Program-made: the position numbers and the translations under genes | Assembly (NCBI GenBank): GCA_015345905.1 | Contig: JADDTR010000014.1 | Location: forward strand, 682,001-746,000 | DNA: 64,000 bases | Reading direction: 5' to 3' | Origin: Aotearoamyces nothofagi | Taxonomy: Eukaryota > Ascomycota > Leotiomycetes > Leotiales > Tympanidaceae | The notes under the pieces: model-generated | What the model was told of the DNA's origin: nothing | Seen by the model: the letters and a program-made list of their open reading frames with translations, nothing else | Databases searched by the model: none | Shown: positions 1,510 to 63,644 of the stretch, piece after piece | Position numbering within the stretch: position 1 is the first letter of the stretch | How the letters are laid out: every line of letters starts with the position of its first letter

Positions 1510-4230
1510 ATGTCAAGACCGCAAGTTGGCATTGAACGACTTCCAGCTGTTGGCCGCCGCCTCAGTAATGAGCCGAGGGAAAGCATGAATTGCAAGTCCT
1601 GCAGGAAAAGAAAGGTCTGCCTCTCTAACCAGATCAGACATACATGTGGGATTTTTATATTTACGCTCTGTAGATTAAGTGCAATCGTCTACGGCCGACT
1701 TGCGAGGCATGCCAGGTCTTCCAGTGCCCGTGTATATATGGTTAGTTGTAATGCCATAGCAAGCAGTACTTAAGCTGATGCGGTATCGGCAGATGCTGTC
1801 CCCAAGAAGCGCGGCCCTAAAACAGATGTTCTGGAAGCACTGCTTAAAAGAGTCGATGGGCTTGAGAGACGGTTGAAAGATGAGAAGAAAGCGCATGCAT
1901 CGACGTCGCCGAATAATACCAATAGGAGCGAACCCATTGCTACCGAAGGGAGCCTGAATGATGACAGTCAACCTATACAACGCCCTCGACTCGCCACGAA
2001 TAATGTCACAGACATCGCTGAAGAATCGGCCATATACTCCCCATCACCTACAAGGCAGGTTATCCAGATAATAATTATACAGAGTCCCATAGGAGCCGAG
2101 CTAACTCCGAGTAGTATACCATCACCCGTTGTCCTCCAGGATGTTTTACTCAATACTTACTTCTCGCGCGTCCATGGAAAATCCTACTATATCCTCGATG
2201 AGACGACGATACGACAGCGAATCCAGTCGAACCGAATTCCCAATCATCTACTTTTTGCTATATATGCAGTCAGCGCAAGGTTGGTACACATCTGCTCATG
2301 ATAAACACGAGGCTGATCTTCCGCAGATATACCGCACACCCAGATGGCTATCATGCGGCTGTTAGACTTAGCGAAGATTATGCAACGCGTGCCAGAAATG
2401 AATTGGACACTGACGATCCCACAATTGAGACGCTGCAAACGTTACTCCTTCTAGCAATTGCATTTGCTGCTGCAGGGAAAGGAAAGAAGGCATATATGTT
2501 ATTGGGTAAGTCAATCGGCATACTGGCCCTTATTTTCAGCCCGCTAACAACTGGTAGCTAGTGGAATTGGAATGGCAATGGCCCTCGAATTGCACAGGGA
2601 GTTGGACTTTAAGATCAGGGCAACACCAATTGATCGTGAAATGCGAAGGCGATTATTTTGGACATGCTATATTATGGATCGTTTCACAGCTTGTGGATCA
2701 AAGCGACCCTCACTGATTGCTGACAAGTGTATTGTACTTCGCCTGCCAGCATGGTCACAAAATCCAGTTGCATTGCCGATCGAGGGTGAGTTCTTCCAAA
2801 ACGGGTCAAACCTGCAATACTACAACGGTTCGGGGGAAAAGTGCCAAGGAAGTAGCGGTATGCTCATTGATATTGTTCGGATTCTCGGTATTACCAACCG
2901 TTACCTGGCAGCTGGGGGAGTGAAGGGTGATTCGCATTTCCCTTGGCACTCGCTGTCAAATCTTTCAAAGATTAGACAAGATCTTGATATCTGGGCATCT
3001 GGCACCCAGGACGTCTTCTCATCTGTTGAGGTCTTATTTGGACAGTCCGACAGTACTACCCTCGTGCTCAGTAAATTGATATATCATCTCATACATTGCC
3101 TGATATATCGACCATTCCTACCAATTGACCTAGCAGAGCTTGCGGGAACTGGTCAACACCAATCGTGGCAGATTGAGGCAACAAATCTATGCTTTTTACA
3201 CGCGAATGCCATCGCAGAGCTTGTCGAACTCGGGAAGCAATCTTCGTCGATTGAGTGGCCCACATTCGTGGGATATTGCATTTGCACAGCGGGCACTGTA
3301 CATGTGCACGGAGCACACTACAAAAGTAGTCAGGAAGGAGAGGTCTTTTCAGCAAGCGCAGAGTTTTTGTCGCGGGAGATGCAACAATTATCGGAACTAC
3401 GTTATACCTGGGCATCAGTACAACACCAACGGGAGACGCTCCAAACTATATATGGCTGCCATTCAGAACTCGTCAAATCTTTGTCCAGCAACCCAATGCG
3501 ATATTCCCCTGTCTTTCACCTTGAAGACTTCTTCGATCGCTATAGTACTGCCGGCCAGTACATTGACAGTGCTCATATCTCATTTGCGGATGTTATAGTT
3601 GATCTAACCCAAGACACATATACTGGCCACGATTTATACGCACCTCGAGCAACTAATGGGTCAGGGGCAGACGGTAAAAGCTCGAACTCATCCAAACGCA
3701 AAGTCAGCTCCTCATCACGGAAAAATCAGGAAGTGAAATCACTACAGATGAATGGCCACATGGAGAATTCTCTTATTTCGCCTAACGGCGTGATCAAGGG
3801 TACCTTCCAGCCGCAGGCCCATGATTCCCGTACTAATGTTCCCCGTGACCAACAACAACGGCTTCTTCCTGATCAGCCTCTTGTGCCATCCTTCAGCGGT
3901 GATCCAGCGAGCATGCCAATTCTGTCCAACACGCCTTTCTCTCCACCCTACGATTTCTCGAGCGTCAGCCTCTCTAACCAGCAAGAGACCTTTGATCCGA
4001 TGTTCGGAATGTCACAGATGACACAGGGAGGGCTTACCAATGGAAATGGTTACGGATACGACAACCAGCCCGTTATGACGCCTAGTGGTAGAAGCAACAA
4101 TGGAAGTACAGGGACGAATGGCGAGGAGAAAGATCCTTTCCTGAGTTTACTGGAGCAATTGGCGGAAAATGAACACTCAAGGGGCGGACCAAGCGAGCTG
4201 GATTTCTTTCTAAGTGGTCAAGGGCAATAG
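1510..4230 (+). CDS. Zn2Cys6 fungal-specific transcription factor
   Basis: This is a nuclear DNA-binding regulator of 836 residues. Proposed exons are 1510-1614, 1674-1740, 1793-2279, 2327-2505 and 2558-4230. Exons 1 and 2 join to give a complete zinc cluster, with cysteines at residues 28, 31, 38, 45, 48 and 55 (C-x2-C-x6-C-x6-C-x2-C-x6-C). It is followed by a basic linker (PKKRGPKTD) and a short coiled segment ([12 protein letters not shown]), the usual Gal4-type order. The middle third, with motifs such as [20 protein letters not shown] and [15 protein letters not shown], matches the fungal-specific transcription factor domain (PF04082 type). The C-terminal 200 residues are Ser/Asn/Gly/Pro-rich, like an activation region. 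Intron 1 has an unusual donor (GTCTGC) but splicing there is needed to complete the zinc cluster. The next genes downstream encode a membrane fusion protein and a Pls-like synthetase, so it may be a pathway regulator. I cannot name the ortholog. Confidence 0.9.
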
Positions 4231-5644: not shown

Positions 5645-8593
5645 ATGGCTGTGAATGAAGCTTTTCCGAATCGCGGCCCCGCCGTCTTGGTCGTAACCAC
5701 GGTGACTCTGGCCATTGCGTGGCTGTTCGTTTGTGCCCGATTGGTGTCGAGAATTCTTGTTGTGAAGAGGGTCACTTGGGATGACTACTTTATAGTAGTG
5801 GGATTGGTGCGCGCGAAGAACCACTTCGAATAAAATAATAAGTCGTGCTGATGATTGCCAGTTCCTTGCCTTCGGCCTGTCGTTTGCAATAGATTATGGC
5901 ACCTCCAAGGGCTTGGGGAGACTTGATGCGGACATTAAAATCTCGTGGTACTTGAGTCTCAGGATATGCGAATACGCATTTTCGGTCCTCTATGTATGCT
6001 CTAACCCCCCCTGAGTGGAATGGTACTAACCTCCTAGAACCCCGCATTGATGGCTACGAAGACCTCGATCTTAATATTCTACCTTCGACTGTCGCGATAT
6101 ACGAATAAACTGCTTCGAATCGCATCCTATGTCACACTTGGAGTTGTCAACGTTGCTGGAATTGTCTTGACATTTCTCAATGTCTTTCAATGCCGCCCTA
6201 TTGGAGCGGTATTTAATTCAAGCAATGATTCGGCCCACTGTATCCCTCTGGTCACCCTGTTTCTCTCATCAGCACCAGCAAATATTATTACAGATCTTAC
6301 AATTCTTGTCCTACCAATCCCGGTCCTGACCGCAATGCAGTTACCGCAAAAGCAAAAATCAATCTTAATCATGACCTTTGGCCTCGGAATCTTCGTCTGC
6401 ATTGTAGATGTTGTCCGCATCTACTACCTGCAGCAGGCTTCGATGGATGTATCAAATCGTATTTCACCTTCTTCGAGCTCTCACATTAGTGAGCAGGTGG
6501 ATTTTGCATGGGTTCGTAATTTTCCGAGTCCCAAGCATTAATAACTCCTATTATTAGACTTCAAGGTGCATTGCTGATATTATCATATACAGTACGCTTC
6601 GCTTGCTCTGATGTGGACTGCTGTGGAAGTCAATGTTGGGATCATTTGCGCGTGCATTCCTACCCTGAAGCCATTAGTTCGGAGAATCATTCCTAACCTG
6701 ATCGATCATACGCATTATGGAACAAGCAATACCGAATCTTCAGAGTCTCCTATCAATGCTACCCTTAATAACCAATCACCTCGGCGACTTGAGTCCGTCG
6801 CAGTAGCAGGTATCCAGCCTCTGCCGCCTGCTCAACAAGGAGGAGACCAGGAGAGAGAGATGAGCATGATAGATTTCCTGACCGTGCCAGGTACGGATCC
6901 AGAAGCAATCAGGAGAATAGAGATTGCACGCGCACAAGCCACCGCTAACTTGGTATACTTTGGATTCGTCAATATGAGAAGACCTAGGAGCATGCTCAAG
7001 ACAAAGGGGTGGGAAGCAGCCAAATACTGTATTACAGTCACAATCCTATTCTTCTTGTGGGGGTTCTCTTACGGTCTCTTAAATACACTCAACAACCAAA
7101 TATCAAAAATCTCACATATCAGCACAAGCCAAACTCTTGGACTTCAAAGCGCGTATTTTGGTGCATATTTTGTTGGCCCGCTCACCGTAGGACGGTGGCT
7201 TCTCAGGCATGGTGGATTTAAAGCGACTTTTATTGGAGGTCTTTGCATATATGGTACTGGAACACTCTGTTTCTGGCCGTCGGCAGTCTTGGTATCTTTT
7301 CCCGGCTTTGTTGTGTCAAATTTCGTTGTCGGATTTGGTCTCTCTGTTCTCGAAACCGCCGCGAACCCATTCCTGGTACTTTGCGGACCGTCTGATTATG
7401 GCGAGATGCGTCTTCTTATTGCGCAAGGTGTCCAAGGCATTGGCAGTGTCGTCAGTCCGCTTCTAGCTGAGAAAGTACTGTTTGGGACAATTACAGACGC
7501 AAACTCCCTTATCGACGTACAATGGACTTATCTTGCCATTGCTTTCTTCGACGTCGCCCTTGCCCTTTTTTTCTACTATATGCCGCTCCCTGAAGCTATT
7601 GATGAAGACTTGCGCTTGCAATGCACGTCAGATACTGGTCGACAGAGCAACCAGAACCTCTATTTCAATACCAACAATTATAATATCAACGGATTTAATG
7701 ATAGGTCCATTTTCGCCTCAAAGTCACATATCGGCAAATACCGAGTCATATACATAACCCTTGTGCTTGGAATAGTTGCACAGTTTCTATACGTTGCCGC
7801 GCAAGAATCTCTCTTAGTCTGGTACACAGCTCTCCTCGCCACGCTACCTCCATCGAGAGGTACCGCATTGGCATTAAGTCCGACAAACTATGTTCTCACC
7901 TCACACGCAACCTTTGCATTAGGACGATTTCTCTGGGCACCATTCTGTCTTTGGATCCGCCCTCGCATTCTCTTGCTCGTCTCCCTAGTAGGCGCTCTTG
8001 TATTCTCGATCTTGATCATTTCACTTCACAACAGCAGCAGCAATGCCCAATCTGGAGAGTTTCCCAATACGATCGCCGGTCTCATTGGGGTTCTGTTCTT
8101 CTTCGAAGGCCCGATTTTCCCGCTGATCTTTGCTATTTCTATAAGAGGAGTTGGGAGCGCGACGAAAACGGCTGCGTCAGCTATGACAGCTGCAACTTCT
8201 GGTGGGGCAGTATTCCCATGGGTGATGTGGGCCGTCCAGGTCGATGGTGGTAGGAGTATACAATACAGCTATTGCGTACCTGTGGCATTGCTGGCAGTAG
8301 CAACCTTCTTCCCTGTGTATATGTGCGTCTTTCCTCAAGCAAGGAAACAGGTTGACCCAAATGGAAAGCAAAAGTCAAGAAACCCAAGTTTCTCCGGAGA
8401 TCACCTTAGATATGAGGCCAGAGACAGGGATGGCAATAGGCCTGAGACATGCATATGGAGTCTTGGCAAGGACGTTATGAGATTCATCAAGAAGTTCAAA
8501 GACGGTGAAGCGACTACGTCTGGTGGCAAGGTCGATGGTAACACAATTGCCAAGCACAGTGAGAGGAAGAGTGATGTGAGTTCAAAAGCTTGA
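5645..8593 (+). CDS. PTH11/SAT4-like rhodopsin domain fused to FucP-like MFS transporter
   Basis: This predicted 922-residue membrane protein has exons 5645-5806, 5862-5993, 6038-6511 and 6593-8593. Residues about 10-280 form a seven-helix rhodopsin-like domain (SAT4/PTH11 family), with typical blocks ARLVSRILVVKRVTWDDYF, MATKTSILIFYLRL and VDFAWYASLALMWTAVEVN. A polar linker (about 283-395) leads into a full MFS transporter at about 399-840. Its start FFLWGFSYGLLNTLNNQ, the GAYFVGPL block and the ETAANPF block are typical of the L-fucose/glucose-galactose (FucP) permease group. A charged cytosolic-looking tail follows. The last exon runs without a stop or a plausible intron from the final receptor helix through the linker and all of the MFS part, so the fusion is read directly from sequence. 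Start 5645 is chosen because the conserved domain begins about 10 residues later; an in-frame ATG at 5594 is possible. It could sense and import a sugar or related ligand, but that function is inferred. Two genes whose separator was lost is the main alternative. Confidence 0.85.
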
Positions 8594-11292
8594 ACCGTCC
8601 ATTCTGTGATACCTACATATACCTATTCGCTTCAGGTACTATGTGATATCATGGAATGAGGCATGTCGAATTTTAACTCCTGCCATATCTCTTCTAGGGC
8701 ACGTTGGCGATCCTCTGATCCTAAGCTAACAGCTGGAGTTGAGTCTACCTAAATAGGCGCGGGTAGTTAATATTGGGACTGGGATGGCTCTCGAGGTGGT
8801 TTCGTCAGCTATTCGGACCTCTGAATGACTTAGGATATCTTCTACTGTAGGAGATTATCTAATCGGGCTTACTGCTTCTTGGCGGCAACGATACCATGGA
8901 TTGATACCTCTCGTTCTTGTCAAAATCGAGAGCAGATACGATTACGACTGGAGACTGATCTGCTTTATATATGGGTCACTTGGGCCCTGTTCAAGATAGC
9001 GAAGGTGTGTAAGATAGCAGAGGTACAACATCTGTTCTGTGACTTCGTAGAAGTTCGCGAATCGTGCCCGATATGGCAATGCTTTAGATAACCAGATGAA
9101 AACTATGCATGATGGTTTATCTAACCTTAGATTCTAATCCCTGTGTCGTGTGAGGATATTACATAACTCTTGACCCTTACATACGCCGATCCTTCGTTGA
9201 GAGCAGATTATCGATCTGCTATCAAGTAGCACTGTGACAAGGTATAAATCTCCACCCAATCGGATTTATGTGTTGTTGATTGATGATAATTTAGTTTGGG
9301 TCGCGGTCAAATTAGTCAGTCAGTACCTACGCGTACTGGTTTGGATGACTGGATCTAATTTACTCTGTTCATCTACTACACAGCACAGGGTTCTGACCAT
9401 TAGTAAAGGACACAGCATCTTGAATTGCGGCATTTGAAGCCTGCCAGGGTTGGTAAGACAAGCTGGCAGCTTCGAAAAGACAAGATCAAGCAGCGATAAT
9501 GGGCAACAGGAATGAAGGGGAGCCCATGCCAGGAGAGAGGACCACGCGGTGGCACCGCAATCGCAAGGACATCGCTACAGTGGCAAGCAAGTACCGTGAT
9601 AAGCATGTGCATGCAGATCAGCAGATGCTGATGTCGATCAGACATGCCGTCTGAAAGACAACGCGTCGAAGAGGCTTCAGGGAGGACACCCATTACCTTG
9701 TGGGAGTATAAGGTTCCATGGTGTCATGGGACGGGAAGGAAGTCGAGGACGGGCATGCAACCTCTCCAACAGAGTGGCGGCCCTCTGCTGTCCTCGAGTA
9801 CTGTCTGGACATCTGCAGTGCGGACTGTATTGTCCTGTACAAGCAAGCAAGTCCAGATAAGGTGTGGCTGGTATAGTAGCTCGCGTGAAGTTTCTTTTTA
9901 CAACGGACGCCATACCGTCATGCACGCCTCGTCGTCAGACTGACAGCCGTTGGGGAGGCCCTCTGAAGCGCAACGCTGCCGTCTGGCATTCCACGGTAGC
10001 TCCGCGCGCTGGTGGACTTGCGGCTGGGCCAGAGCCTTTGGACGTCTGCTTGTGGCCTAGCCGTGATGCTCAAGCGAGGGATTTTGCCCGCCACAGAATA
10101 CGCCTTTCGACCTCCAAATAGCACGCCGTCCACTACAAACCGCACGCTGCTCTGCGCGCTGCAGAAGATCACAAGAAATGAAGGATCGGGCTGCAGACTG
10201 CAGGATGCAGGATGCACAAGCACAGATTCCAGGTATCCCGGCTGAAACCTCCGAGGGCATAGGTGGTTTTCTTTTATCATCCCACTCTGTACAATACAGA
10301 CTCTGGCTTGCTCTCTTCGAGGCGTTTTCGCTGTCGTCCTAAGGACCTGAGACCTCACTTGCCCAGATCTTCATACCGCCTTGTCGTGCTACTCTGTACC
10401 CACTGCACCTCAATTGCCGTGTCTGACATTTGGAGCTGGGCCATGCAAGGAACCTCTTATAGAGGAGGCCCATATGTCTTATCAGTTTTCTTAGAAGTGC
10501 AGTAGCCCAATTTGTGTGATCGTCACCGCACAGATGACTTCTGCAACGCTGCCCCACCATGTGAACATCATGGATGAGTATTCCGTCTGATATTCTAGCT
10601 TTGGCTCTCTGAGGCTTATCTGCACTACAATACGGTCCCGCAGGCTTTCCGTTCATAGAAATATATCGGCGCTTACCGCCAAGAGTTTAACTTCCGGAAG
10701 TAGTCGGGGGCGTCAAATGCAACGGCCACAGCTCATTCCTCGGATCCCTTCGAACGAAAGAACACATAGAAACCTCCTTGACAGGGTCCTTGACAGGAGA
10801 CTAACTATCAGGATCAAGAAAACAATGTGGCCTTCACCGTTCAGCTGAAAATTAAGACTTTCCCAACGGAATTTTTGAAGTATATCGAAATACTCGTTCC
10901 ACTTTTCTTCGAAGCTAGGCCAAACCAGTGCCAGCAACCACCAAGCAGGACCGGGAACGGCTACAGCAACAATGAATTCATCTGGGAACGAGAGTCTATT
11001 TCCATTATCAGACCATCCTCCGGAGGTCTTATCCATGAATAATGAGTCGGAATGATGCAATTATGGTAAGTGGATCACTTCATATCACTACTATCAAAAT
11101 CGCCTCTTGGTGGTATGTAAAGCCCTTTTAGTATATGTCCCTAGACTCCTCTATACATATATCCCCAATATATTTCATTTCCATATCTTGTTATTTTGGA
11201 AGCCATAGAGATATGTTGCAAACCAGCCTTGAACGATTTAGAGGTAATAACGAAATCAATTGAACCCTATCCTAAGCCATCTGCCGGACAAG
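8594..11292. other. Intergenic, 2.7 kb without a supported gene
   Basis: No domain-bearing frame was found on either strand. An open frame on the minus strand at 10713-11060 (115 codons) has some Trp-rich segments but no family I recognise. The last 250 bases are AT-rich and probably carry the promoter of the synthetase gene starting at 11293. Confidence 0.55.
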
Positions 11293-14200
11293 ATGTCACT
11301 TACAATGGACGACCTGTACGACTTTATTGAGGCTTCCTCTCTCAGTTCACACGAAAAGTCCCTATGCACATCCTACGCCCAACGAACTATACACTCCTTG
11401 TCGAATTATGACTCGGACAAATCCTTAGCCAAGAAGCTTGCTTCGATTGAAGTTACGCCGACTCCAACATGTATTCCACTCGCAACTCTTTCCTTGATGC
11501 TTTCGAAGCATGGAGGTCCGTGGCCGATTCTACATCTCGTCCGCTGCTATAATCGACTTTGGCAGGCCTTACCCGAGGAAGTCAAGGCCGACCAATATCC
11601 TGAAGAATCGAGCCTCGTCTGGAAAACACTGCGACAGGTCAAATCTTCATATCAGAGTTTGGCAGATCTTATACCTTCATCCCACAATAGACCTGCCTTA
11701 ATAGATCCCGTTAGCGGAGGATCTTTGACACACAGAGCACTGGCCAAATTCATATCCAAATTCAGTCTACCTATATCAACCCAATCAACAGCAAAACCCG
11801 TGGTGGTCATTGCGATGCCAAACGGACCCCTCTTAGGCCTTGCATGTCTTGCTGTCTCCAATTACTACAGAGCAGCACCAATCAACGCGTCTGGTGGAAG
11901 CGAACAATTCCGAATCGATGTACAGCAATGTGGCTCCAAAGCCTTGCTCGTATCTAGACCATATCTCAAAACGCTGAAGCTCAACGAGCCCTGGATTGAT
12001 GAGTCTGATATCGAGATTTTTGTCGTCGATCCGAAACTTGATTTAACCTTCGATATTACTTCCCTAACTCCGCGCAAGTCGCCTACTCTCGCTATCCAGA
12101 CGGCAAATAAACCTGATGATATCGCCTTTATACTCTTCACAAGCGGGACTAGCGGGACCAAGAAGCTAGTGCCTCTTACTGTACACTCAATTGTCTGTGG
12201 TGTTGCTTTCGTTATAGAATCATGGGGCCTAAGGAAGAAGGATAGCTGTCTCAATATGATGCCGTTGAACCATGTGTAAGAACTATCCTTAAAGCATCAT
12301 ATGCACCTACTAACAAACTTAGTGGCGGACTGATCAGAAACTTATTTTCACCTGTCATTTCTGGAGGTTCTACGATTTGTTGTTCTGCTTTCGATCCTAA
12401 TCTCTTCTGGGACATTGTCGAAGAGCATTCCCCATCTTGGTACTATGCTTCACCTTCTATGCATTCGACAATATTGGCCGAAGCTGCTCATAGGCTTGAC
12501 GCTGTAGCCAAAAACCGAATTCGGCTTGTTTGTAATGCTGCCGGTGGACTTCTCCCATCCCTAGCCATCCAGATTCGAGACATTTTCAATTGTACCGTAT
12601 TGCCAAGTTATGGTATGACAGAATGCATGCCTATCTCGACACCACTACTTGACTATGTTCTTGACCGTCCAGGAACATCCGGGATTAGTGCTGGGCCGGA
12701 GATTGCCATTCTCGATCCAGAACAGAACCTCCTACCACCCCACACGGTTGGACACATTGCCGTACGAGGAGCTCCAGTTTTCCCAGGATATCTTACAGCA
12801 TCATTTCAGATTGAAACTAGTGCTTTTACAAAAGCCGGCTGGTTTGATACTGGCGACATGGGGTATCTCGATGACGATAGTTACTTGTACGTCACAGGAA
12901 GAAGCAAGGAGGTTATCAATCGAGGTGGGGAGCTCATATCCCCACTCGAAATCGAGGAAGCTATCATGAAAGCCTCCCAAGATCCTGAATCGTCGGTTTA
13001 CAACAGGATTTCAGAGACCCTTGTATTTTCAGCTCCACACGATGTTCTTCAAGAGGTTGTTGGTGTTGTGATTGTAACGCCGGGCGGCCAGCCAAGAGCT
13101 GATATACGACAGCTACAGGAGTCGCTCAAGTCATCACTACATCAGGTAAAATGGCCTGTAGTGATGGTTTACATGGATGCACTACCGAAAAACAATAACA
13201 AGATTCTCCGTGTTAAGCTGGCTGAGCGACTTCATTTGAACCCTTTCAGTGACAGTATGACTTTAGGTCAAAGACACTTCGAAGCGAATTGCCCACCACC
13301 TGACACGCCGCTGACGCAGCCAATTGAGCAGCAGCTCTGCACGATTGATCTTGATGCTACTACACAGGTAGTCGCCCAGGAGTGCGGTTCATTTCTTGAC
13401 AGCGACATTTGGGAAGGTCCTCTTGACCATTTGACAATAATGGTTTTAGCCCCAAAAGGTTGTGGCCCGAAGGCAGTACCTGATTATGAGTATCTTATTG
13501 AGAAGTTGACGGCGAAGCTCAGAGAAACTTTGAATGGCTACCTCGTTCCAAACAGCATTGATTTCATCGATACACCGTTCCCAGTTGACGGGACTGGACT
13601 TATTGATCGAGTTCAAGTCACTTCGATCATTGAAAGTCGCAAGTTGGGCGATTTAAAGGCTACGGACCTGTCTTTTCACGAAAAGAGAATCCGCGAGATC
13701 TTCGCTGACATTCTATCATGTCCTTATTCAGCTATTGCAAACGATTCGGACTTCTTCGAAATGGGCGGTGATAGTTTGAAGGCAGGAAGACTACTATCTA
13801 CCATACGGCGAGAACTCAATGTTCGTGTGCCTATCGAAGTTCTATTTACGAATGGCACTGTTCAAAGCCTCTGCGATCTTGTTGACGACAGACTTTCAGG
13901 TAGTGAGAAAGAAGAGGGAGGGAAGAAGTACATACCGCTACCAGGATGTGAGACCACATACAGCTCAACAAACCCAATCCTGCTACTGGTACAACTCTTT
14001 CCTATGCTCTTCGTGTTCCCAATGAAACGTGCATTTCAGTGGACATGTCTTTTGTATAGTTTGAGTATTGCTCTGACGATCTGGCAAACGGGCACTACTG
14101 TTTTTACACGTCTGGTTATCCTCCTGTTTTCTGTCCTCATAGCACAAGCTGTAACGCAGATTGCCGCTCCCATTTTTGCTATTGCTACAAAATGGATCCT

Positions 14201-16464
14201 TATTGGTCGCTATAAAGAGGGTCTATATCCGATGTGGGGCCTCTATCACACTCGATGGTGGCTTACACAAAAGATCCTAGCAATAGGAGGCAAGGTATAT
14301 CCACTACTCCTCATTGTTTTGTCTATGTGCTAATTACCCACAGGGTGTCTTTAATAAATTCGACTTCTCCAGGGTTCTATACTACCGCCTACTTGGTGCG
14401 AAGATTGGGAGGGGAGTTAGTATTAATGGAGCTGCAACTCTTGGGGAGTATGACCTGCTCACAATAGGAGATGGTGTGCAATTAGACAATTGCATATGTC
14501 GACCATTCGGGGTCGAGCGCAACACAACTATGTACCTTGGACGAATAGAACTCGGGAGGGGTTCAAGCGTAGGCTTAAAATCCCTCGTCGCACCTGGCAC
14601 GACTTTGCCTCCCGATACTTGTATTGGACCGAACTCCTCAAGCTGGGAAACCAAAGATGCCACCGAAGCTAATCGAGATCTATTATCCAACAGGATCCCA
14701 CGGCCACATATCATAACCCAAATCTTTCTGGGGTGGCCTATTATACTCGCTATCAACATTATATCACTCATTCCTCGTGTAGCAGGTTTGATAGGACTTG
14801 TGCAGCACCAGCCGACAGTGTCGAGTGATATGGTGAGATCTGTCATCATTTGGTTTGCATCACCAAAGCGGGTTGGTTACCATTTTCTTGCTCTCATTCT
14901 TGGTTCGACCCTTGGATGTGGAGTCTACTTCTTCGTGGTCATAATTGTGAAACGCTCTATGGACTTGGTCTTTGGTAAGCTACATGCTGGGCCGGCGTCA
15001 CAGCGGAGTGAGTTGCATAAGTTTCGCATGTGGTTGATGGCAACGCTTTTGCCCGGAGGAGATCTCAGTCGCCTCACCGAGTACTTTGGTACCCATTACA
15101 ACTTTACTTCCTTGGTTGTGCGAGCCTTGGGAGGAAAAGTAGGAGAGCGAGTGTATTGGCCAGGACATGGTCCGTCGATCCAAGACTTCGACTTGATCGA
15201 TATCGGAGATGACGTTGTGTTCGGATCCCGGTCACATATCGTGACTTCAGATGGCACCGGTAGTGATTACGTTCGAATTGGATCTGGAAGCATGGTTGCC
15301 GATCGCGTCGTTATACTTCCGGGAACTTCGATGGATGAAAATGTGGTGCTTGGTAGTGGTGCTTTGACAAGAAGATATGGCCACTACGCAAAGGATACAG
15401 TCTGGGTTGGCAGCAAAGAAGGTGGCGCAATTTGCTTGACTGCAACCGATCGCAAGCAGAGCGTTGCCAGCTCTTTGACTTTCTTCGACGGAAATCGGAG
15501 CGAGATGAACTCGGCAGCGGCAAGTGTGAGAACTCTTCATTCTAAAGGACCCTTAGAGGAGAAGATGTTTAAGGAAATGTTATCAGTCAATAATACCAAG
15601 ACTACTCTAAACTCCTATCCCGACCAATCTTCTGCAGCCAGCGAGAAGGATTCCTCCAGTCCTTTTGGCCGAGCTTTCTATGAAGGCAACGCGACTTACC
15701 ATGTCCTTGGTCTCTTTAGTATCTTCCTCTATTCTACATGCAGTGCAATCTTTATCACTGTTTACTGGAATGTTACGACGGTCGCTACCGTTCAAATCCT
15801 TTGCGCTTTCATCAAACCTTACCCAACGGCATTCACAATGAGTGCAGGAAAACCAGTCGTTATATGGGCCATTGCATGCGTTATCAATGGGGTGCTTCTT
15901 GGCATCCAAAGCCTCGTTGCAGTCAGCATCGTCGTCGCCTTCAAATGGGCGCTGATGGGCCGCCGACAGCCTGGTAGTTATGACTGGGACAAGAGCAGCT
16001 ACTGTCAACGCTGGCAGGGGTTTCTCACTATCGAAAAAATCCGTCGCAACTGCCTCGGGGGCGACGGCGTCATTGGCCTGCTTACTGGGACACACTATAC
16101 CGTCATGTTCTTCCGCGCTCTGGGCGCAACCATCGGGAAAGATTGCGCCTTGTTCGCAGGCGGGAAACCAAGCTTGCTGTTTACAGAACCAGATCTTCTG
16201 ACACTTGGAGACCGCGTCACAGTGGACGATGCGAGCTTAGTCTCCCACATCAACTCCCGAGGCAACTTCCACTTGAACAAGCTAAGCGTTGGAGAGCGAA
16301 GCGTACTCAGATCCGGATCGAGGCTGCTGAGTGGCGCGCAGATGGATAGCGATGCATGTTTGTTGGAGCACACACTTGTTATGGGCGGTGACTTGGTCGA
16401 GAGGGGGAGCACCTATCAGGGGTGGCCGGCGGACTATTTTGGTGGACAGAGAGTTGCTCTGTAG
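11293..16464 (+). CDS. Pls/PosA-like NRPS-like synthetase (A-T-membrane-triple beta-helix)
   Basis: A 1,691-residue enzyme with exons 11293-12275, 12323-14294 and 14344-16464. Residues about 140-630 are an ANL adenylation domain: FTSGTSGTKKLVPL (phosphate loop), YGMTE, WFDTGDMGYLDDD, a GRSKEVINRGGE hinge and catalytic lysine in PKNNNKILR (about residue 619). Residues about 713-773 look like a second, degenerate C-terminal adenylation subdomain. A carrier domain follows, with the phosphopantetheine serine in MGGDSL near residue 808. The rest alternates predicted membrane helices (about 880-943, 1107-1187, 1434-1521) with three left-handed beta-helix modules rich in hexapeptide-like repeats (about 997-1085, 1229-1344, 1564-1684). 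This order matches bacterial epsilon-poly-lysine synthetase (Pls/PosA family), which also has fungal members. The activation core resembles acyl-CoA synthetases: MMPLNHVGGL stands where amino-acid-activating domains usually carry FDxS with its aspartate. The substrate may therefore be a non-amino carboxylic acid. The product is unknown. The first ATG of the open frame is used. Confidence 0.88.
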
Positions 16465-61505: not shown

Positions 61506-63644
61506 TTATACGACACCAGCCAAAGCCTTCAATTCGGGAAAGATCTATAATTCGTCAAACACAAGTCAGCCTCAATACCACATAATTTAAAGTGTCATAT
61601 ATCCCGCCCCTTTCACCATCCCAAAATCGAAATCAAAATCAAGATCCAAAATGAAAACCCCAAAACTCACCGGCGTACCAAACCCCGAAACCGGGTCCCA
61701 TCCCGCGGTAGCATTAAAACCATCAACCCCACACCCCGCCGCACTCCCGCTAACAATATCCGTCAAGCCCTTCCAGCCCTTCGAATACAGCCACGGGTTC
61801 AGGAACCCAAGCGGCGATTTGCCCGACGCTATCAGGGCGTCGTTGATGAGCGCGATGATGCCTGACGTGAGCGGCGTCGAGGCGCTGGTCCCGCTGATGA
61901 CGCCCTCGGTGCCGTTCCAGACATAGGCAAAATATTGGCCCTGGGCTGAGATGTCGGGGTAGCCACGACCGGCTAAAAGGGGGGCGTTAGATGTTTATAT
62001 ATTCGGTGGGAGAAAGGAGAAAGGAGAAAAGAGAAAGGAGAAAGAGAAACAATAAAAGAAAGGACGAAATAAGGAGGAGATAATACTGACATTTGTTATA
62101 CAGCCCATCGTATAGACCGTTCAGATTAGCTATATACTGACTTACGACCTTATCCTGATATTTCGGCCTCTCGAAATAATTACTGAATCCACCACCACTG
62201 GAGTAAATTTCAGCATAAGAGCCCGACGCAGTGTAATAGCCCGGCCGGTACGCCACGACTTCAGGCTCAAATTGGTGCGTTGCGCCGACTGTAGTAACAT
62301 ATGGACAGCTAGACGGGAAGAGGGGGATGAATTGAGTCGTGTTCTTGCCATCGTTGCTGAGACAAGTGTTGTTAATGCCTACACCACGATCGCCGCTGGC
62401 AAAGAGGATCGAGACGCCACGGGCGCCGAGTTGGGCGAACTGCTTGCAGACTCTCTCAGCGTAGGCTTTTGGGACGGTTTGTTCGTCATCGGCGTACGAG
62501 GTGCTGATGACTTGTGGGATGACGGGTTGGCTGAGCACGTAGTTGACCCACACTAGGTAGGGTTCATTGGTGTTGGTGTCTGTGCTGATGTCTGGGATAA
62601 AAGGCGGCTCGGTACCGGTCGAATAGGCCCAGATGGGAGTTGGATAACTGATTCCTGCAATGGCTTCGACGTCGAGATTCGCTTCTTTGGATATTCCCTC
62701 GGCGGCTTGGGAGTAGTTTAGTGGACCGTCTTGGGAGGGGCCGCCGGCGATGTCGATCTGCTTGAAGGAATATGCCGCAGAAACGGCTTCGGGTTTGTAT
62801 TTTGCTAAAAATTTGGCCGTATCAGGACGAATTGGGATCTCTCCTAGGAAACTGTTGAATCCAATCTTGTTCTTGCCAGCCGCTTTGGCCTGGTAGCCGA
62901 GAGTGGAATAGAGGTTTGCAAAGCATTCCGGAGTCACGGAGCTGATGTTACAGACTTTTGAAATAGTAGCATTTGTTGGTGGCTTGTATGCTGGTGGAGT
63001 CCATAGTGGGAATTCAAGAAACTCTGCCTTTTGTGGGGCAGTTCGCATGAATGATGTTGTTGGCTGGATAGCATCTACATGTTCATGAAGGTGGGTAGGC
63101 AGTGACCACTGTGGTGTACGGATCAAGCGCGTGCCATCTTCGTGCTCGAAGACATAATAATCGGTGTCGAGTAGACGCTCAGCAGTCTCGACAGAAATGA
63201 CGAGCTCAATCCAATCTTTGGAAGGGCTGTAGTTCAAGTCTTCCAGTCCATTGTTTGCCAGCCATTCATGCACAAGATCTAGAGATTCTTCTGTTGGCTT
63301 GACAAGTTCATTCACCTCCTCAACACTCAAATGTTGACCATAACGGCTATGTTCAGGATCAGAAACTAAATACTGTGTTAGTGCTGCATGGGAGGAATAT
63401 GCCGGTTTTGCATCTTTCTGGACATACCTTCATACAAATGACGCTCCAACTCATCGAATTGGCCCTGTTTCAAGCCAATTTGCAAATGGATTAAACTCCC
63501 TCCCGCAGCTCTGCCAACCTTCTTCCATTGACGCGGTACATGATGTGATTCTTTGACAGCATACTGAGTACGCGTATGTATCGGTGTTCCAAAGACAGCA
63601 TTAGCAGCGACAGCCACAGCAAGCAGAGTCGCAACACCTAACAT
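61506..63644 (-). CDS. Secreted sedolisin (S53 tripeptidyl-peptidase-like)
   Basis: A secreted acid serine-carboxyl protease of 610 residues. Exons on the minus strand are 63644-63428, 63365-62091, 61972-61671 and 61544-61506. It starts with a signal peptide (MLGVATLLAVAVAANAVFG). A pro-kumamolisin prodomain follows, with the YGQHLSVEEVNEL motif. The catalytic domain begins near ISSVTPECFANLYS. Catalytic Glu and Asp are in KEANLDVEA, the oxyanion Asp in FASGDRGVG, and the catalytic Ser in VISGTSASTP, which lies in the third exon. A calcium-site Asp is in TDIVSGSAAG. The last exon is only 13 codons (IFPELKALAGVV). Intron 2 contains a purine-rich repeat (GGAGAAA on the plus strand, 62009-62051). 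The substrate class, tripeptidyl or endopeptidase, cannot be told. Confidence 0.93.
62009..62051. repeat. Purine-rich GGAGAAA repeat inside a sedolisin intron
   Basis: About five to six GGAGAAA-like units form a homopurine run on the plus strand, hence a polypyrimidine run on the coding strand of the minus-strand gene, within intron 62090-61973. Confidence 0.75.

Follow-up and report, generated by a model that had tools for sequence, protein, structure and literature searches.

The yeast glucose sensors Snf3 and Rgt2 are MFS transporters that have turned into sensors and carry a cytosolic signalling part. The gene described here would be alike in idea, as an MFS transporter turned sensor; however, Snf3 and Rgt2 belong to the sugar porter family, give their output through a soluble tail and possess no seven-helix (7TM) domain. 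The transporter half of our gene resembles the FucP-type L-fucose:H+ symporters and glucose-galactose permeases, which form the FHS family of MFS transporters, and its receptor half resembles the PTH11-like/SAT4-like 7TM family (fungal GPCR class XIV, PF20684). To our knowledge, little has been proven about G-protein signalling by PTH11-like proteins that lack a CFEM domain. The nearest precedent in kind is human LYCHOS (GPR155), described as a hybrid of 17 helices that combines a PIN-like transporter with a GPCR-like domain and serves as a lysosomal cholesterol sensor (PMC11574030). It shares with our gene the joining of a transporter-type and a 7TM receptor-type domain in one frame but, by its description, has the PIN-like transporter first, an adhesion/secretin-like 7TM domain and a DEP domain.

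Pth11-like receptors have been reported from Pezizomycotina only, according to the accessible part of a survey (PMC12842992), which makes a member of this group the probable source of the DNA analyzed here. No description of a PTH11-MFS fusion was found in the open-licence PMC library, which covers the literature in part, and the accessible portions of three papers on fungal GPCRs (PMC12842992, PMC5526305, PMC13308352) mention no transporter fusion. As far as its available text goes, the survey retained a protein only if it had 6-7 helices and required >75% coverage of both proteins (PMC12842992), and the filters of this study and of PMC5526305, by coverage or helix count, would probably drop such fusions, to judge from the sections at hand. 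What would be new here are the partners, a PTH11-like 7TM domain and a FucP-like MFS domain, in a fungus, whereas transporter-receptor hybrids as such are known.

The window, i.e., the whole 64-kb stretch of DNA that was analyzed, comes from contig C14 of a genome of 25.5 Mb in 55 contigs. It contains a gene, fusA, that encodes both domains; another gene of this kind, fusB, is located on contig C13 of this genome. The features of fusA are given as positions of the window and those of fusB as positions of its contig:

5645-8593, plus strand: fusA gene, four predicted exons, encoding 922 aa
5645, plus strand: start codon ATG of fusA, with no earlier ATG in its frame
5645..5806, plus strand: exon 1, aa 1-54, with the N-terminus, receptor TM1 and the start of TM2; boundary the same in fusB
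5807..5861, plus strand: intron 1, 55 nt, phase 0, GT-AG; matched in position by an intron of fusB
5862..5993, plus strand: exon 2, aa 55-98
5994..6037, plus strand: intron 2, 44 nt, phase 0, GT-AG; position the same in fusB
6038..6511, plus strand: exon 3, aa 99-256, receptor TM3-TM6 by family pattern
6512..6592, plus strand: intron 3, 81 nt, phase 0, GT-AG; missing from fusB
6593..8593, plus strand: exon 4, a single open frame with receptor TM7, linker, complete MFS and C-tail
5735..6685, plus strand: Fung_rhodopsin (PF20684) domain, aa 31-287, split over exons 1-4
6686..7003, plus strand: polar linker, aa 288-393, about 106 aa, putatively cytosolic, mostly of low pLDDT
7004..8344, plus strand: FucP-like MFS domain, aa 394-840
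8345..8593, plus strand: C-terminal tail and stop (TGA)
8591-8593, plus strand: stop codon TGA
G000:C13:600451-597763, minus strand: fusB, 859 aa, comprising a Fung_rhodopsin and an MFS domain as in fusA

An initial annotation of the window had proposed, at 5645-8593, a single reading frame that runs from the last receptor helix through a polar linker into a full MFS transporter. Both ends of the gene were correct, and the continuous frame was borne out by exon 4, as the open frame 6578-8593 holds receptor TM7, the linker and the MFS domain. The beginning at the last receptor helix, however, applies to this exon only, and the whole receptor domain is present, distributed over four exons. The 318-nt linker of fusA was open in 0.47% of 20,000 trials after mononucleotide shuffling, and within intron 2 the branch-site-like word ACTAAC was recognized by eye. 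A search of the 64-kb window against Rfam gave 0 matches.

In fusB, one uninterrupted genomic frame of 761 aa takes in receptor TM3 and all that follows as far as the end of the MFS domain and is free of any splicing assumption. The initial annotation had considered that homologs might always encode the two parts as separate genes, which is contradicted by fusB encoding both in one frame. We consider it highly improbable that fusA gives rise to two separate products, i.e., that genes for a receptor and for a transporter merely share a frame, owing to an assembly error, an internal promoter or alternative polyadenylation. With 33% identity, the linker is less conserved between fusA and fusB than either domain, as such an arrangement would have it. 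However, receptor TM7 sits in the transporter exon, and a separate receptor transcript would therefore need to end inside exon 4; in addition, fusA and fusB both have an open frame across the linker despite saturated synonymous sites. An artefact of assembly or gene model was likewise rejected on the evidence of fusB, which lies on another contig and shows the same build without the third and last intron. The fused frame of fusA therefore holds, and an artefact is very unlikely.

The assignment of the receptor half to the PTH11/SAT4-like 7TM domains was supported by Pfam, in which Fung_rhodopsin (PF20684) matched fusA at aa 31-287 over its full length (profile positions 1-237 of 237, E 4.2e-58) and fusB over positions 1-235 of 237 (E 4.8e-56). 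Both matches, with 197.1 bits for fusA and 190.4 bits for fusB, exceeded the curated cut-off of 27 bits. The likeness to the PTH11-like family thus lies in a full-length domain match, and fusA belongs to the family by its domain and not as a whole protein, as the MFS domain follows the 7TM domain in the same chain: in contrast to the family, fusA runs on into a complete transporter and is without a CFEM domain, none of which was found in fusA by Pfam. A PDB sequence search with the fusA receptor half returned 0 matches at E values up to 10.

Across the genome, 47 rows for Fung_rhodopsin merged into about 31 places. We checked 30 Fung_rhodopsin loci (L009-L038, with flanks of about 1.5 kb and two pairs overlapping) for an MFS domain, which was present in 2 of the 30, namely fusA and fusB only; 17 of the 47 rows were without a locus and 3 of the 31 places lay outside this check, whereas the search for FucP-like MFS domains covered the whole genome. 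The latter gave seven rows and four places, two of them fused and two stand-alone (on contigs C8 and C1). No third fused copy was found in the genome, and the linker was matched by fusA and fusB only.

With respect to topology, the helix counts of 7 and 12 (about 19 in total) were taken from the family matches; a plain hydropathy scan at a threshold of 1.3 resolved 14 peaks instead of 19, of which 6 fell on the receptor side and 8 on the MFS side. The ends of the linker carry 3 K/R against 1 acidic residue after TM7 and 6 against 1 before MFS TM1. We infer that the linker is cytosolic, with an N-out/C-in 7TM domain being followed by an N-in/C-in MFS domain, an arrangement that the basic linker ends would fit.

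The transporter half was matched by MFS_1 (PF07690) in Pfam, in fusA at aa 406-798 (E 1.1e-13) and in fusB with E 3e-17. The view that it is a full FucP-like MFS transporter gained support from two sides: a PDB sequence search by phmmer aligned E. coli FucP (3o7q) with aa 406-829 of fusA (E 1.6e-22), and the two best PDB matches found by Foldseek for an AlphaFold2 model of fusA exon 4 were FucP structures (3o7p and 3o7q). This model, of exon 4 alone, had a mean pLDDT of 69.6, with the MFS helices mostly at 80-97 and receptor TM7 and the linker mostly <60; its reach does not extend to contact between the two halves. Among NCBIfam models, fusA scored under the cut-off of all four that it matched, including the L-fucose:H+ symporter equivalog TIGR00885 (118.6 vs 280.4 bits), and the stand-alone C1 protein likewise stayed under all four cut-offs (TIGR00885, 235.4 vs 280.4 bits). 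The nearest non-fused sequence to the fusA MFS domain in this set was the stand-alone fungal gene on C1, with 44% identity. Compared with the FucP-type symporters, fusA is alike in fold, sequence and the kept residue Glu135 but differs by the exchange of Asp46 for Asn and by the attached 7TM domain.

Over aligned positions, the identity of fusA and fusB amounts to 63% for the receptor, 33% for the linker, 55% for the MFS domain and 24% for the C-tail. Synonymous differences between them are saturated (pS 0.75-0.87), and pN/pS is 0.32 for the receptor and 0.38 for the MFS domain, with overlapping 95% intervals, as compared to 0.62 for the linker and 0.61 for the C-tail. To judge from these ratios, both domains are under purifying selection. 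Because synonymous sites are saturated and pN/pS is low in both domains, the sequences indicate an old duplication of the entire fused gene, after which both copies have stayed fused with the linker in frame. Since the fusion is old, its age suggests that other Pezizomycotina have it as well. Two independent fusions were ruled out, as each half of fusA and fusB is closest to its counterpart among the relatives found in the genome: the MFS domain of fusA is 55% identical to that of fusB vs 44% and 41% to those of the stand-alone genes, and the best-scoring other receptor match in the genome is 36% identical. A further reason was the grouping of the two MFS domains with 100% support in the tree described below.

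The same comparison bears on the role of the 7TM domain, which might be a non-sensing helper in trafficking, dimerisation or turnover of the carrier, or a mere passenger. We regard this as improbable, as the receptor is conserved between the paralogues at least as well as the MFS domain, both in identity and, with the overlapping intervals given above, in pN/pS, and as the whole or nearly the whole Fung_rhodopsin profile is matched in both proteins.

To compare the transporter half with its relatives at functionally important positions, we used the following residues of fusA:

7082..7084, plus strand: codon AAT of N420, which aligns with FucP Asp46 (proton coupling)
7352..7354, plus strand: codon GAA of E510, which aligns with FucP Glu135; kept
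7805..7807, plus strand: codon GAA of E661, a fusion-specific acid in the seventh MFS helix

The alignment of fusA with FucP is gap-free and places aa 420 on Asp46 and aa 510 on Glu135. For a wider comparison, 44 bacterial relatives from Bacteroidota, Pseudoxanthomonas, Helicobacter and Veillonella were found by means of two short motifs that do not include Asp46 or Glu135; this sample is uneven and mostly from Bacteroidota, and it includes a single partial gene (L088). In viral contigs, 36 motif matches were obtained, with no relative among them. Alignment A2 comprised 20 of the 44 bacterial loci and the tree 17 of the 44. The position of Asp46 is occupied by Asn in both fusions (2/2) and by Asp in all 44 bacterial relatives and both stand-alone genes of the genome (44/44 and 2/2), whereas all 48 sequences have Glu at the position of the substrate residue Glu135. 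At the position of E661, both fusions have Glu and all 45 non-fused relatives with a residue there have Val. Further departures common to both fusions are F426I, F667Y, N669A and G802W/Y. These departures may mean that the pocket has changed, so that neither fucose nor any other hexose has to be the ligand.

A tree built from 21 sequences separated fusA and fusB from the remaining 19, with a support of 100% and a stem of 0.95 substitutions per site, and separated the four fungal sequences from the bacteria, also with 100% support. Because of these splits and the long branch leading to fusA and fusB, the change from Asp to Asn is most simply placed on the stem of the fusions.

FucP Asp46 has been described as the putative proton-binding residue, as far as the accessible text states (PMC4882079), and in E. 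coli FucP the D46N exchange inactivated proton translocation while substrate-specific charge displacements remained, according to the available part of a further study (PMC8784342). As N420 corresponds to D46N, the fusions naturally carry the exchange that turns FucP into a non-pumping binder. The initial annotation had proposed a transceptor that both senses and imports its ligand. The import part of this proposal is weakened, as the coupling position holds Asn in both fusions and Asp in the 46 non-fused sequences. Because the proton-coupling residue is Asn in both fusions, active import by them is unlikely unless another acid has taken over. In a proton-coupled importing transceptor, the same ligand would be sensed and actively imported, with coupling by a relocated acid such as E661. 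This residue is new and common to both fusions and could in principle couple, and the MFS fold appears intact in the exon 4 model. We nevertheless consider such a protein rather improbable, as the usual coupling residue is gone in both fusions but in 0 of the 46 non-fused relatives and as D46N halts proton translocation in FucP, in the available account (PMC8784342).

Passive transport may still occur, because GLUT1 has Asn at a comparable place. The MFS half would then work without coupling, as GLUT1 does, with flux or bound ligand being reported by the 7TM half. The available text of a comparative study names this position (Asp27 in XylE, Asn29 in GLUT1) as a key element separating symporter from uniporter (PMC5491310). 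The complete MFS fold, the kept Glu135 position and the fact that both fusions keep 56 of the 104 columns conserved across 46 non-fused relatives are also in line with a working carrier. On the other hand, when D27N in XylE was accompanied by further changes, activity rose little or not at all until all of them were combined, according to the same accessible text (PMC5491310). Among 118 columns conserved in bacteria, moreover, the fusions keep fewer (fusA 69, fusB 58) than the stand-alone proteins of C8 (77, from a model without its N-terminus) and C1 (82), and the changes F426I, F667Y and N669A common to the fusions are unusual. Taken with this evidence, we regard a facilitative transceptor as unlikely, if worth serious consideration.

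The sequence comparison rather suggests that the fusion protein senses a ligand, or is no more than a passive carrier, and signals via its 7TM domain, and we favour this over a proton-driven importing transceptor. More specifically, fusA may encode a nutrient sensor derived from a retired transporter, a single protein of about 19 helices in which the MFS half binds the ligand and the 7TM half signals, an interpretation in which our belief and our doubt are about balanced. According to this model, one gene would give rise to one membrane protein in which an N-terminal PTH11/SAT4-like 7TM domain is connected by a cytosolic linker to a FucP-like MFS domain of twelve helices. The MFS half would have lost proton pumping and would bind a small ligand, presumably a sugar or sugar-like. 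Binding would shift the MFS conformation, and this shift would be passed on by the linker and by helix contacts to the 7TM half, which would signal to a G protein or another cytosolic partner. Somewhat more tentatively, we propose an old family of fungal hybrids in which a FucP-type symporter minus its coupling carboxylate has become the ligand-binding sensor of a PTH11-like receptor, as an independent counterpart of LYCHOS. A receptor that is attached to a binding domain of transporter origin provides a starting point for learning what PTH11-like receptors sense, and how, and, if the model is true, would lead directly to ligands for a class of orphan receptors. The exchange of Asp for Asn in both fusions makes the idea of a transporter turned sensor directly testable.

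The neighbours of fusA and fusB point to no clear ligand, and no neighbour shared by the two genes was seen in the flanks read. fusA is flanked on one side by a Fungal_trans transcription factor gene and on the other by an NRPS-like gene of the A-T-hexapeptide type:

2548-4230, same strand as fusA: partial Fungal_trans (PF04082) gene directly upstream of fusA, which it could regulate
11251-16464: apparent NRPS-like enzyme in three overlapping long frames (adenylation, carrier and a C-terminal weak hexapeptide repeat match), perhaps of the epsilon-poly-lysine-synthetase type

The divergent neighbour of fusB (L046:7380-8720) encodes an iron-containing alcohol dehydrogenase (Fe-ADH), possibly a maleylacetate reductase, for which MAR1 was the best match in the PDB (E 1.2e-87); its position beside fusB might hint at an aromatic-derived ligand. 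A sugar porter gene is located about 4 kb and an SDR fragment about 5 kb from fusB. About 7 kb from fusB lies a further Fung_rhodopsin gene without an MFS domain (L093:4687-6339), and contig C13 harbors five Fung_rhodopsin places. Towards the other end of the window, a Pro-kumamolisin activation domain (PF09286) occurs at 61987-63429 on the minus strand, probably belonging to a gene for a sedolisin-type peptidase.
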